In this document: one piece after another, positions 33,332 through 36,608 of the stretch | Position numbering within the stretch: the stretch's first letter is position 1 | Layout of the letters: every line of letters starts with the position of its first letter | From: an uncultured Verrucomicrobia subdivision 3 bacterium | GTDB lineage: Bacteria > Verrucomicrobiota > Verrucomicrobiia > Limisphaerales > UBA11358 | Length of the DNA stretch: 51,746 nucleotides | Direction: 5' to 3' | Assembly (NCBI GenBank): GCA_903835255.1 | Contig: CAILMI010000017.1 | Span: forward strand, 1 to 51,746 | The notes under the pieces: generated by a model | Databases searched by the model: none | Told to the model about the DNA's origin: nothing | Seen by the model: only the letters and a program-made list of their open reading frames with translations | Made by a program: the position numbers and the translations under genes

Positions 33332-34420
33332 ATGGCACACGTCAAATTGCACATCCCGGGACCGGTCGAAGTCAGCGAAAAAACCTTTCAGGCGTTCCGC
33401 TCGCCCATGGTCGGGCATCGTGGGCAGGGCTTCAAAGACCTCTACGCAAAAATTCAGCCGCAGCTCCAGCAGCTGCTTTACACGCGGCAGCTCGTTTATC
33501 TCTCTACCTCGTCGGCCTGGGGCGTCATGGAGGGCGCCGTGCGCAATCTCGTCCAGAAAAAAGTCCTCAACTGCATGTGCGGCGCCTTTTCGGACAAGTG
33601 GCTGGATGTGTCCAAGAAATGCGGCAAGTCAGCCGAGGCCCTTCAGGTCGAATGGGGCTCCCCCATCCGCGCTGAGGCGATCGACCGCAAGCTCGCCACC
33701 GGCGAATTCGACGCGCTCACCCTCATCCACAACGAAACCTCCACCGGCACCATGAGCCCGCTGTCGGAGATTGCGGCGCTCAAGAAAAAGTATCCCGAGG
33801 TGATGTTCATCGTGGACGCCGTCAGCTCGCTCACCGCGCTGCCTGTGAAGTTCGACGAGCTGGGCATCGACGTCCTGCTGGCGGGGACGCAGAAGGCGTT
33901 TGCCCTGCCGCCGGGGCTGACGGTGTTCACCGCCTCGCCCGCGGCGCTCGCCAAGGCGGCCACCGCCAAGGATCGCGGCTACTATTTCGACTTTGTCGAG
34001 TTCCAGAAAAACGCCGAGCAGAGCATGACGCCTAGCACGCCCAGCATCAGCCACATCTACGCCCTCTCCTCCAAGCTCGATGATTTCTTCGCCGAAGGCT
34101 TGGAGAACCGTTTTGCGCGCCATGCCAAGACCAACCAGCTCACGCGGGACTGGGCGGCGAAGCACGGCTTCAATCTTTTTCCCGAAAAGGGATACGAGTC
34201 CGTCACCCTCACCTGCGTCAGCAACGGCGCGCGTCCGGGCGGGCGCACGGTGGACGTGGCCAAGCTGCAAAAGCTCGTGAAAGACCAGGGATTTCTGATC
34301 GATGGCGGCTACGGGAAAATCAAGGGCACCACGTTCCGTCTTTCCAACATGGGCGACGAAACCGAGGCCACGATGAACCATCTCTACGCCGCGCTCGACC
34401 GGGCGATGGCGCAACTTTAA
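33332..34420 (+). CDS. Class V PLP aminotransferase (alanine-glyoxylate/serine type)
   Basis: Fold-type I enzyme of the alanine-glyoxylate, serine-pyruvate or phosphoserine group. Motifs: HIPGPVEVSEKTFQAF, MVGHRGQGFKDLY, IVDAVSSLTALPVKFDELGID (Asp162 binds the PLP nitrogen), and Schiff-base Lys188 in LLAGTQKAFALPPG. The length (362) is normal. The start is followed by a clean open frame and the gene ends 20 bp before a strong terminator. The adjacency to leuA is separated by that terminator, so a shared pathway is not implied. The substrate could be serine, alanine or phosphoserine. Confidence 0.9.
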   Translation: MAHVKLHIPGPVEVSEKTFQAFRSPMVGHRGQGFKDLYAKIQPQLQQLLYTRQLVYLSTSSAWGVMEGAVRNLVQKKVLNCMCGAFSDKWLDVSKKCGKSAEALQVEWGSPIRAEAIDRKLATGEFDALTLIHNETSTGTMSPLSEIAALKKKYPEVMFIVDAVSSLTALPVKFDELGIDVLLAGTQKAFALPPGLTVFTASPAALAKAATAKDRGYYFDFVEFQKNAEQSMTPSTPSISHIYALSSKLDDFFAEGLENRFARHAKTNQLTRDWAAKHGFNLFPEKGYESVTLTCVSNGARPGGRTVDVAKLQKLVKDQGFLIDGGYGKIKGTTFRLSNMGDETEATMNHLYAALDRAMAQL

Positions 34421-34440
34421 TATCGGAAGGATTGAGCAGG

Positions 34441-34479
34441 AACCGGCAATCCGCGTGGGGCGCGGGTTGCCGGTTTTTT
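34441..34479 (+). terminator. Rho-independent terminator after class V aminotransferase
   Basis: AACCGGCAA-CCGCG pairs with CGCGG-TTGCCGGTT around a short loop, with one mismatch, followed by TTTTTTG. Confidence 0.85.
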
Positions 34480-34537
34480 GATTCCGGCCTATTTCCGTGG
34501 CGGTCCTTTTACCCGGGAGCGCAAGCAGCGCCCTGTT

Positions 34538-34668
34538 TCAATCCCGAATGCCGAAGTAGGGAGTGGCATCGCGCTGCGATGGCCCCTGCGCCATATTAGG
34601 CGCGGAAGGAAATTTGAGGGCGTCCGTATGTGCCACCTCGGTGCGTTATCCTTCCAGGAAAAGCGCCG
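34538..34668. repeat. Interspersed repeat, copy E
   Basis: Starts with CCCGAATGCCGAAGTAGG, then GGCATCGCGCTGCGATGGCC. The stretch GCGCGGAAGG..TTTG..GGGCGTCCGT at 34,599-34,627 matches copy B at about 2,836-2,865 in the same orientation. It lies between a terminator and the leu promoter and holds no gene. Confidence 0.55.
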
Positions 34669-34677
34669 GGAAAAGAT

Positions 34678-34706
34678 TTGACCGGTCCCATCCCCCGCGC
34701 TAGCTT
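34678..34706 (+). promoter_or_regulatory. Promoter for the leu leader and leuA
   Basis: TTGACC (34,678-34,683), 17-bp spacer, TAGCTT (34,701-34,706). A start seven bases downstream would fall at about 34,713, which is the GTG of the leader ORF, implying a leaderless transcript. The -10 resembles the TAGTCT of the rpmB promoter. Confidence 0.55.
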
Positions 34707-34712
34707 GGCCCC

Positions 34713-34778
34713 GTGAATCACTCTCTTAATCTGCACTTAATCCTAGCGCTGCCCCGCAGCGCGGCAGTCGGGCTTTGA
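34713..34778 (+). CDS. leuL: leu leader peptide (attenuator)
   Basis: A 21-codon ORF starting GTG AAT CAC TCT CTT. It contains six Leu codons at 34,725 (CTT), 34,731 (CTG), 34,737 (TTA), 34,743 (CTA), 34,749 (CTG) and 34,773 (CTT), including the likely rare TTA and CTA. An in-frame TAG at 34,701 means the GTG is the only start that includes the cluster. No Shine-Dalgarno is seen, in line with a leaderless start. It ends ..ALPRSAAVGL just before a terminator. Ribosome stalling at Leu codons would report charged tRNA-Leu. It is the translated sensor of leuA attenuation; inference from architecture. Confidence 0.75.
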   Translation: MNHSLNLHLILALPRSAAVGL

Positions 34779-34833
34779 TTCATTCAACCGAATTTAACAA
34801 ACCCACTGCCGGATTGGCGGTGGGTTTTTTTTT
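34749..34833 (+). promoter_or_regulatory. Attenuator: alternative hairpins and terminator before leuA
   Basis: Four segments can pair in turn: CTGCC (34,749-34,753), CGGCAGT (34,762-34,768), ACTGCC (34,805-34,810) and GGCGGT (34,816-34,821). The 3:4 hairpin is a perfect 10-bp stem (ACCCACTGCC / GGCGGTGGGT, loop GGATT) followed by nine Ts, a strong terminator. The 2:3 pairing would be the antiterminator; 1:2 would protect the terminator when the ribosome is absent. Segment 1 and 2 lie inside the leader ORF. Confidence 0.75.
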
Positions 34834-34952
34834 GAAACACGGATGGAACCTAATCGGAAAAGAATCCGGACCTCAGTGGCCGGCGCGAAGTGGAGCGGGT
34901 GGCCGGCCGGGGGTTTTCCCGGATAATCCGGCACCCCTTAAAATCCCTAGTT

Positions 34953-36608
34953 ATGTACAAAGATCCGTCTAAGAAATACCGCCCGTTCCCGCAGATTGCC
35001 CTGCCCGACCGCCAGTGGCCCAGCCGCGTCCTCACGAAGGCTCCGCGGTGGTGCAGCGTGGATCTGCGCGATGGCAATCAGGCGCTTGCCGTGCCGATGA
35101 ACATCTCCCAGAAACTGGAGCTGTTCCAGACGCTCCTGAAGGTCGGGTTCAAGGAAATTGAGGTCGGCTTCCCCTCCGCCTCCAACACGGAATTCGCCTT
35201 CAACCGCCTGCTCATCGAGAAGGGCCATGTCCCCGATGACGTCTGGCTGCAGGTGCTGGTGCCGGCCCGCGAAGATCTCATCGAGCGCACCATCGAATCC
35301 CTCGCCGGCGCCAAGCGAGTGATCATCCACATGTACAACTCCACCTCGCCGGCGCAGCGCCGCGTCGTCTTCGGCAAGTCGAAGAATGAAATCACGGCCA
35401 TCGCCGTCCAGGGCGCCCGGTGGATCCGGGAGCGGCTGCCCCGCCTTCAGGGCGCCGAGGTGATGCTCCAGTATTCGCCCGAAAGCTTCAGCATGACGGA
35501 GGTGGACTATGCCCGGGAAATTTCTGAAGCCGTCATGGACGTGTGGCAGCCGACGCCCCAGCGCCCGATGATTTTAAACCTGCCGGACACGGTGGAGGTG
35601 GCCACGCCCAACGTCCACGCCGACCAGATTGAATGGATGTGCCGCCACCTCCGAAACCGGGAGTCGCTCATCATCTCCCTCCACACCCACAATGACCGCA
35701 GCACCGGCGTGGCGGCCACGGAACTCGGACTGCTCGCGGGAGCGGACCGCGTGGAGGGCACCCTGTTCGGCAATGGCGAGCGGACCGGCAATCTGGACAT
35801 CGTCACCGTCGCACTCAACCTCTACATGCAGGGCATTGACCCGCAGCTGGACTTCAGCGACATCGGAAAAATCCGCGATGTGTATGAGCGCTGCACAGGT
35901 CTGACCGTGCCGCCGCGCCAGCCGTATGCGGGCGAACTGGTCTTCACCGCCTTCAGCGGCTCGCACCAGGATGCGATCAAAAAGGGCCTGGCCGAGCGCC
36001 AAACCGCTGCCCCCGCGTACTGGGACGTGCCCTACTTGACGATTGACCCGGCGGACATCGGGCGGGAATACCGGGAGGTCATCCGCGTTAATTCCCAGTC
36101 CGGCAAGGGCGGCGTGGCCTATCTGCTTGAAAGCGAATTCGGCATCCAGCTGCCCAAGGACATGCAGCGCGAGTTCGGACCCATCGCCAACGACGCGGTG
36201 GACCGTCTGGGACGGGAGGTCAGCGGCGCCGAACTCAAGGCGATGTTCTGGCGGGAATATGTCGAGCGGAATTCGCCTTGGACGCTGCTGGGGTTTGAGA
36301 CGGAAAGCAAAAACGGAATGGTGAAATGCCAAGCGCACTTGCTGCAGGACGGACGGAAGGTGCCTCTGTCCGGCGAGGGGAACGGTCCGCTCGCGGCGCT
36401 CGTCCAGGGTTTTGGCAGCCTCGGCATTCCCCGTTTTGAAATCACCAATTACAGCGAGCACGCCTTGGATTCGGGCGAGGCCGCGGCCGCGATTTCCTAC
36501 ATCCAGATCAAGACCGCCGCCGGCAAGAGCCTCTGGGGTGCGGGCGTGGACACCAACATTGAGCTCGCCTCGGTGCGCGCCGTCTTAAGCGCCCTGAACC
36601 GGTCGTGA
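34953..36608 (+). CDS. leuA: 2-isopropylmalate synthase
   Basis: First committed step of leucine synthesis: acetyl-CoA plus 2-ketoisovalerate. The catalytic domain has VDLRDGNQAL, GFKEIEVGFPSAS and the metal-binding LHTHNDRSTGVAATELGLLAGADRVEGTLFGNGERTGN region. The C-terminal ~120 residues (from ~430) form the allosteric LeuA dimer domain (ESKNGMVKCQAHLLQDG, VPLSGEGNGPLAALVQGF), so leucine feedback inhibition is expected. It is the long (552 aa) actinobacterial/fungal-like LeuA type, starting MYKDPSKKYRPFP. ATG 34,953 is preferred to the open frame from 34,890. Expression should be controlled by the attenuator 120 bp upstream. Confidence 0.96.
   Translation: MYKDPSKKYRPFPQIALPDRQWPSRVLTKAPRWCSVDLRDGNQALAVPMNISQKLELFQTLLKVGFKEIEVGFPSASNTEFAFNRLLIEKGHVPDDVWLQVLVPAREDLIERTIESLAGAKRVIIHMYNSTSPAQRRVVFGKSKNEITAIAVQGARWIRERLPRLQGAEVMLQYSPESFSMTEVDYAREISEAVMDVWQPTPQRPMILNLPDTVEVATPNVHADQIEWMCRHLRNRESLIISLHTHNDRSTGVAATELGLLAGADRVEGTLFGNGERTGNLDIVTVALNLYMQGIDPQLDFSDIGKIRDVYERCTGLTVPPRQPYAGELVFTAFSGSHQDAIKKGLAERQTAAPAYWDVPYLTIDPADIGREYREVIRVNSQSGKGGVAYLLESEFGIQLPKDMQREFGPIANDAVDRLGREVSGAELKAMFWREYVERNSPWTLLGFETESKNGMVKCQAHLLQDGRKVPLSGEGNGPLAALVQGFGSLGIPRFEITNYSEHALDSGEAAAAISYIQIKTAAGKSLWGAGVDTNIELASVRAVLSALNRS

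Follow-up and report, generated by a model that had tools for sequence, protein, structure and literature searches.

In the enterobacterial leu operon a leader peptide with Leu codons and a choice between terminator and antiterminator precede leuA; this leader has a Shine-Dalgarno (SD) sequence and a 1:2 hairpin. The leaderless polycysteine short ORFs of mycobacteria are said to use a leaderless reading frame as an amino acid sensor, in that case for cysteine. For Streptomyces lividans, the available part of PMC8079986 describes leaderless Leu-rich leader peptides, leuL1 at leuA and leuL2 at leuS, with a hairpin and a U stretch following leuL2 while leuL1 lacks a typical Rho-independent terminator. 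The actinobacterial LEU element is presented in the excerpt of PMC1262725 as a pseudoknot with Leu codons that pair with the SD of leuA. The ilvB1 attenuator of Mycobacterium tuberculosis, in the accessible text of PMC13236596, has a 166-nt leader with branched-chain codons and a choice between antiterminator and terminator, in which a ribosome that has reached the stop codon prevents antiterminator formation. Some Verrucomicrobia are SD-scarce according to the part of PMC10783764 at hand. In the literature searched, mostly at title and abstract level, no description of ribosome-mediated attenuation of amino acid synthesis in Verrucomicrobiota was found; an Akkermansia match on attenuation and leader peptides concerns, in the part available, erythromycin resistance.

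Here we analyse a leuA gene and its upstream region in a stretch of 51,746 nt (hereafter the window), from a genome of 3.17 Mb in 70 contigs. The gene is very likely preceded by a ribosome-mediated transcription attenuator with a leaderless leader peptide. This was the reading of the initial annotation, and it is supported in substance, with the exception of a proposed masking element. The loci described below were used to compute the component parts and how far they are conserved, the covariation in each of the two alternative pairings, and the spacing from promoter to start codon, which is steady.

Leader reading frame and promoter

LeuA of the window scores 814.7 bits with NF002991 (cut-off 455) and 729.4 bits with TIGR00970 (cut-off 697.4); the second LeuA-like gene of the genome is a citramalate synthase (TIGR00977, 675.9 bits). 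Among 80 named LeuA relatives most are titled Verrucomicrobia or a subgroup, many of them subdivision 3, Limisphaerales or Pedosphaera, and a few are labelled Akkermansia, Proteobacteria or other, in line with the earlier guess of a probable verrucomicrobium. The order sampled is, we infer, Limisphaerales.

At most 500 nt upstream of leuA were taken from 110 matching loci. The 81 leuA loci with at least 67% identity gave 75 candidate leaders, 67 of them distinct (8 duplicates). No leader was obtained from six loci (L014, L016, L033, L064, L065 and L081), several of which are truncated or gapped, and five with a spurious or other leader were removed by hand (L070, L071, L075, L077 and L079). 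The resulting 62 distinct loci, the window and 61 relatives, share a Leu-rich leader and a terminator and were aligned as A1. A covariance model, R1, was built from this alignment; the window is in the training set and its own score is therefore not independent. The features are collected in Table 1.

Table 1. Features of the leuA leader region in the window, and the ilvB attenuator of the same genome
Feature	Position	Strand	Basis and remarks
Candidate -35 hexamer TTGACC	34678-34683	+	sequence; aligned loci
Candidate -10 hexamer TAGCTT	34701-34706	+	17-nt spacer from -35; 6 nt before GTG 34713
Leader peptide ORF VNHSLNLHLILALPRSAAVGL*, probably leaderless	34713-34778	+	66 bases, 21 codons; 62 distinct loci
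Closing stem, 5' strand	34713-34720	+	pairs with 34776-34783; window fold, swap test
Leu-codon control region: codons 5 CTT, 7 CTG, 9 TTA, 11 CTA, 13 CTG	34725-34751	+	sequence
Region 2, last leader codons GGCAGTCGGGCTTTG; antiterminator 5' strand, mimics terminator 3' arm	34763-34777	+	pairing, synonymous-codon test
Closing stem, 3' strand, overlaps stop codon	34776-34783	+	window fold, swap test
Region 3 CAAACCCACTGCC; pairs with region 2 or, from 34799, with 34816-34827 (terminator)	34798-34810	+	pairing, covariation
Intrinsic terminator: stem 34799-34810/34816-34827, T-run 34825-34833 (nine)	34799-34833	+	scan, covariation
leuA, 2-isopropylmalate synthase, TIGR00970/NF002991 type, 551 residues	34953-36608	+	profile match; ATG 34953
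Val-rich, apparently leaderless ilvB attenuator	G000:C20, L191:1262-1416		own genome; leader and terminator found

The GTG at 34713 is the seventh base past the end of the -10 hexamer. Throughout the alignment of 62 loci (one of them the window), the start codon of the leader lies 34-39 nt downstream of the first base of the best -35 match and is separated from the end of the best -10 by 5-9 nt (exactly 6 nt in 41), the start codons of this set having been picked partly by promoter fit and Leu count. When the loci are aligned on the start codon, T-rich -35 columns stand at -36 to -34 and the -10 at -13 to -7. Leader and leuA are 130 to 376 nt apart, and the spacing from promoter to start is steady. 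When start codons were chosen by a rule that ignores the promoter, 41 of 49 loci still had a -35-like hexamer at 34-39 nt upstream; three of the 49 (L075, L083 and L104) lie outside the 62-locus set. R1 located another 23 leaders, which precede one or the other LeuA type and a few of which share genomes with loci of the set; here an exact TTGAC starts 35-38 nt upstream in 19 and at 27-28 nt in three where a longer reading frame had been picked; L153 has none. No leader start reaches an SD pairing of -7 kcal/mol or lower (0/62, against 4.8% of shuffled leader upstream stretches), nor does any leuA start codon (0/62).

A promoter that places the start of transcription at the start codon, together with the absence of an SD, is the mark of a leaderless mRNA, and both are read here from sequence. 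The leuA leader is thus very probably leaderless, with transcription starting at the GTG, as had first been proposed from the position of the promoter. An unlikely alternative is that the attenuator is real and transcription starts further upstream, so that ribosomes enter through a short 5' UTR. A generic sigma-70 scan of 33500-36500 lends it some weight, having found no promoter-like site; TAGCTT fits three of six positions of the scan's -10 consensus, and the promoter therefore rests on its conservation in relatives. That conservation speaks against an upstream start, given the -35 and -10 columns aligned to the start codon with the -10 end at 5-9 nt in every locus, as does the lack of an SD at the threshold used in 62/62, with starts partly chosen by promoter fit; the promoter-blind rule yields the same -35 distance.

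The leader ORF agrees with the initial annotation, which had listed 21 codons, six Leu codons with TTA and CTA among them, and an in-frame TAG at 34701, all read there in the sequence. The sixth Leu codon, beyond the control region of Table 1, is codon 21, CTT. Over the 62 distinct loci, window included, the peptide consensus is approximately (V/M)NRNLNLLLTNALLTSAAVGF*. As expected of an attenuator, codons for the amino acid under regulation are overrepresented in the ORF: Leu makes up 28.8% of leader codons and 8.6% of those of leuA in the 62 loci, Leu count being among the criteria of leader selection. Relative to leuA, CTG, CTT and CTA are enriched in the leaders of the set; CTC, at 36.6% in leuA, makes up 3.2% there, and TTG 9.8% against 26.8%. 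CTC is the commonest Leu codon of leuA, yet it is avoided in the leaders, where CTT is enriched. CTC and CTT are usually read by one tRNA, and the avoidance of the one with preference for the other is not explained by tRNA identity alone. In selective tRNA charging theory the choice of leader codon matters, as the consulted portion of PMC1183508 puts it.

Alternative pairings and ribosome position

Between leader ORF and gene lies an intrinsic terminator, as an attenuator requires. The nine Ts first noted are present, and the stem, described at the time as a perfect 10 bp, has 12 pairs including one U-G wobble; in the terminator scan the count is 13 pairs, with a loop of 3. Over the 62 loci 96.3% of cells are paired and five of the 12 pairs have changed on both sides, one of them being C-G in 37, A-U in 20, G-C in one and G-U in one. 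The antiterminator, regions 2 and 3 of Table 1, has a pairing energy of -17.6 kcal/mol in the window and extends into the stop codon. The pairing of CGGCAGT (34762-34768) with ACTGCC (34805-34810) that had been proposed is part of it and was drawn too short. Its nine core pairs are 95.7% paired over the 62 loci, one of them as A-U in 25, G-U in 20 and G-C in 12. The covariation counts are inflated by related rows, and the loci include MAGs; with this reading, the terminator lies above all shuffles on all five measures and the antiterminator on three, its changes on both sides being reached by one of 500 shuffles and its measure of further pair types by 67 of 500. Both helices exceed their slid versions. 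The 120-nt leader fold has a z of -4.36, which none of 200 shuffles equals. RNAalifold alone returns the terminator and a small hairpin inside region 2 and no antiterminator, since the terminator is the more stable fold.

The codons for AVGF and the stop (GGCAGTCGGGTTTTGA in many relatives) resemble the 3' arm of the terminator, and the fit reaches the level of the single codon. The third base of the last sense codon tracks the class of the arm, T with AAACCC-like and C with GAACCCC-like arms (16/4 against 12/26 in 58 of the 62 loci, Fisher p = 7e-4). In 61 of 62 loci regions 2 and 3 pair more strongly than the mean of synonymous codon sets; native and synonymous pairing average -18.5 and -13.1 kcal/mol, and single loci reach p <= 0.05 in 25 of 62 (0.403). 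In the window the native value of -17.6 kcal/mol stands against a synonymous mean of -12.5 kcal/mol and is matched by 13% of random sets; its own codon choice, taken alone, is unexceptional.

We infer stalling, termination and the leucine response of the leader from these parts as follows. RNA polymerase would start at the GTG or within about 2 nt of it, and a ribosome would therefore begin directly on the 5' end. When charged tRNA-Leu is short, the ribosome would stall among Leu codons 5-13 and leave region 2 exposed, which would pair with region 3, so that the terminator is blocked and leuA transcribed. With ample leucine it would reach the stop codon and cover region 2; the terminator would then form and transcription end.

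The pairing and covariation data point to an antiterminator exclusive with the terminator, and its control by ribosome position was modelled by ribosome-masked folding of the nascent RNA in the 62 loci, the antiterminator being scored at P > 0.5. It is predicted in 62/62 loci with a ribosome at the mid Leu codon, in 56/62 with one at the last control Leu and in 0/62 with one at the stop codon, the last value being largely a matter of geometry. With no ribosome it is predicted in 42/62, the window among them, and untranslated leaders would therefore read through. At equilibrium the complete window RNA is predicted to prefer the terminator in every modelled state, that with a stalled ribosome included, so the switch must be kinetic and chosen during transcription.

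The initial annotation had also an upstream CTGCC masking CGGCAGT, and this part finds no support: the nascent window RNA free of ribosomes is still predicted to form the antiterminator (P = 1.00). A protector hairpin over region 2 built on this CTGCC is likewise unsupported in the window, as the helix GCGCTGC/GCAGCGC (34746-34752/34756-34762) leaves region 2 free, and no conserved protector of region 2 was seen in the 62 loci.

A further pairing joins the start codon to the stop codon, in the window GTGAATCA with TGATTCAT. Between the first 15-18 nt and the region of the stop codon, native partners pair at -7.47 kcal/mol and partners swapped between loci at -6.20 kcal/mol; the native pairing is the stronger in 45 of 62 loci (p = 7e-5; p = 0.0015 in a reduced set of 35). 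Codons 7-12, used as a control, show no effect (p = 0.68). A finer scan of ten comparisons, uncorrected, gave p = 0.007 for a segment that begins at base 6 and overlaps the first one; segments from base 12 onward show no stronger native pairing, one having p = 0.048 in the opposite direction. The stem could shut the 5' end after the first ribosome has passed.

Spread in the order, two LeuA types and ilvB

Of the 293 genomes sampled in the order, 232, spread over 105 of 118 genera, have an R1 match at E <= 1e-6. For 11 of the 232 the best E lies between 1e-9 and 1e-6, the range of terminator-only matches, and the true copies may therefore be nearer 221. In the wider phylum 2 of 387 sampled genomes match, namely the genome of the window and one with a terminator-only match (model positions 88-139); these large searches used stricter filters and may miss weak copies. 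Among the listed genomes without an R1 match, the same-genus G024, G028, G033 and G039 are also without this LeuA (E <= 1e-50).

In its own genome R1 gives 15 matches at E <= 1, one being the element and one its terminator on the opposite strand. Of four others inspected as possible copies, three (L113, L116 and L117) directly follow long reading frames and resemble ordinary terminators, and the fourth (L115), rejected as a leu copy, is the terminator before ilvB. On inspection of 450 nt upstream of the trpE-like genes of this genome, no clear Trp leader was seen.

Several sequences were noted beside the element. The repeat ACCACGGATGAACACGGATAAACACGG and its variants, which look dispersed, stand between terminator and leuA in several loci with long spacers (L017, L032, L035, L036, L037, L047, L050, L052 and L060; also L033 and L016). 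Many relatives with short spacers have a CGCCGGACGGCAATAATAAGAA-like sequence directly after the terminator (L006, L009, L010, L022, L040 and L048), which was not seen in the window. On the minus strand of the window, 12674-12741 matches the Rfam Group II intron family at 40.3 bits (gathering score 40 bits).

The element is found before two types of LeuA, which are about 30% identical. When 84 of the R1 matches were compared with the LeuA list, 79 were found to precede a LeuA gene, 55 of the type of the window and 24 of another type, of which two examples pass TIGR00973 and NF002086. The remaining five comprise two with a partial LeuA just downstream (G160 and G075), two at contig ends (G100 and G071) and G133. 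Two genomes carry both types, each with its own element (L151 and L152 in G110, L153 and L154 in G169). G070, with LeuA of the window's type, and G169, with the other type, share two upstream neighbour genes at 91% and 83% identity. An additional stretch of about 0.8 kb is present in G070, and the alignment with G169 is poor over the 250 nt that precede the leader (65% over gapped columns); replacement of a cassette and a swap of the coding sequence are therefore equally likely. The 12 leuA neighbourhoods compared gave no other matching pair at E <= 1e-8.

The ilvB gene of the same genome is preceded by an ATG ORF, MLKSTSQVVMLGVVAVGDIVGAC*, and then by a terminator, GAACCCACGGCTAAAAAGTCGTGGGTTTTTT; a promoter-like TTGACC-N17-TAAATT ends 9 nt before the ATG. 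A search of 58 genomes gave 48 with a match and 30 loci returned for the order, 31 with that of the genome itself. A Val-rich leader and a terminator precede ilvB in 26 of these 31, own genome included; L208, L209, L212, L214 and L233 were dropped, of which L212 and L233 look like variants. Leaders were selected by Ile/Leu/Val count and promoter fit, and the two traits are partly circular here: Val accounts for 178 of 638 leader codons, with L235 counted in a misread form, and 24 of 26 leaders have their best -35 beginning 34-40 nt upstream. Because of this choice the pairing test alone is independent of it; the last codons pair with the terminator arm above the synonymous mean in 26/26 leaders, with p <= 0.05 in 23/26. 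No SD was found at the ilvB leaders (0/26), and the start-codon closing stem was not found in them (p = 0.86). The ilvB attenuator thus appears to have the same build as that of leuA, with a Val-rich and apparently leaderless leader.

A different conserved RNA element stands upstream of leuA in 28 loci, mostly of Opitutae (L086:2323-2423 and 27 others, L084-L111, alignment A2). It has a short ORF, an invariant CGACTTA and a 10-bp covarying stem, GCGCACGAYC/GRTCGTGCGT, in which 99.3% of cells are paired. Its base stem is weaker (74.3% paired), and a pyrimidine-rich stretch precedes leuA. No T-run terminator was seen in the 28 loci of A2, and three such loci tested gave no Rfam match. A model of it, R2, finds 21 of 387 genomes of the phylum, all of one family, and 20 of 20 fetched matches precede LeuA. 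In L070, L075 and L077, two of them labelled Chthoniobacter, CGACTTA and the inverted-repeat sequence that follows it are similarly placed before leuA; the R2 scores are weak there (17.5 bits for L070, 11.3 bits for L075, none for L077).

Alternative explanations and known systems

Quite improbable is a protein-bound or structure-based RNA like the actinobacterial LEU element, in which translation of the leader is not the sensor. In its favour, changes in the leuA leader of Streptomyces coelicolor behaved unlike the predictions of classical attenuation, as stated in the excerpt of PMC1262725, and leuA of Opitutae has the different conserved element with invariant CGACTTA. The loci of the window's type argue otherwise, since they conserve an intrinsic terminator together with an antiterminator exclusive of it, the leuA start has no SD to sequester (0/62), Leu codons are enriched in the leaders and ilvB shows the same build with Val codons in their place. 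Still less likely is a small functional peptide, encoded by the ORF and conserved at the protein level, with the terminator marking only the end of the transcript. Its C-terminal AAVGF is indeed well conserved, but this stretch is region 2, where synonymous codon choices also suit the pairing and with which the 5' arm of the terminator covaries; the N-terminus and the length of the peptide vary. That a chance ORF is followed by the terminator of the upstream aminotransferase gene, which ends at 34420 on the same strand, can be put aside, as the comparative data already contradict it through recurrence of the element in 232 of 293 genomes of the order and a conserved promoter stands between that gene and the ORF.

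The attenuator with a leaderless leader peptide therefore remains the preferred reading. The alignment of leuA upstream regions in relatives, proposed at the outset as a check, has retained the Leu-rich ORF, the terminator and the covarying alternative pairing. The order-wide spread, the covariation at codon level, the ilvB sibling and the two LeuA types under one attenuator are new. As a tentative and rather speculative extension, the order might govern its branched-chain amino acid synthesis by matched leaderless attenuators, with Leu at leuA and Val at ilvB, the leu element being a portable module and its closing stem making it a one-shot sensor that admits about one pioneer ribosome per transcript. 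If the attenuator reading is right, translation-coupled sensing of Leu and Val would span an order far from Proteobacteria and Actinobacteria, and would do so without Shine-Dalgarno sequences. The element would be a simple, testable leaderless sensor, and the sequence models can be used for annotating many MAGs.

No Rfam leader family reached its threshold at the leuA element in the loci searched, and for RF00512 (Leu_leader) the score of the window is 17.4 bits, where the gathering score is 50. In contrast to that enterobacterial leader, the one described here probably starts leaderless, has its region 2 within the leader reading frame, shows no conserved protector hairpin and precedes a LeuA of TIGR00970 type. 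Compared with the LEU element, as far as the excerpt describes it, a Leu-rich short ORF before leuA is common to both, and here there is an intrinsic terminator; pairing of a Leu-codon run with the SD of leuA has no counterpart, no SD at or below -7 kcal/mol being present in 62/62 loci. With leuL1 and leuL2 of S. lividans, going by the available text, the leaderless Leu-rich leader is shared, in a different phylum and with a different sequence. The M. tuberculosis ilvB1 attenuator, in the part accessible, is close in mechanism and belongs to another phylum, the verrucomicrobial ilvB leader being Val-rich and apparently leaderless. In its proposed working the verrucomicrobial leuA leader is like classical leu/ilv attenuation.
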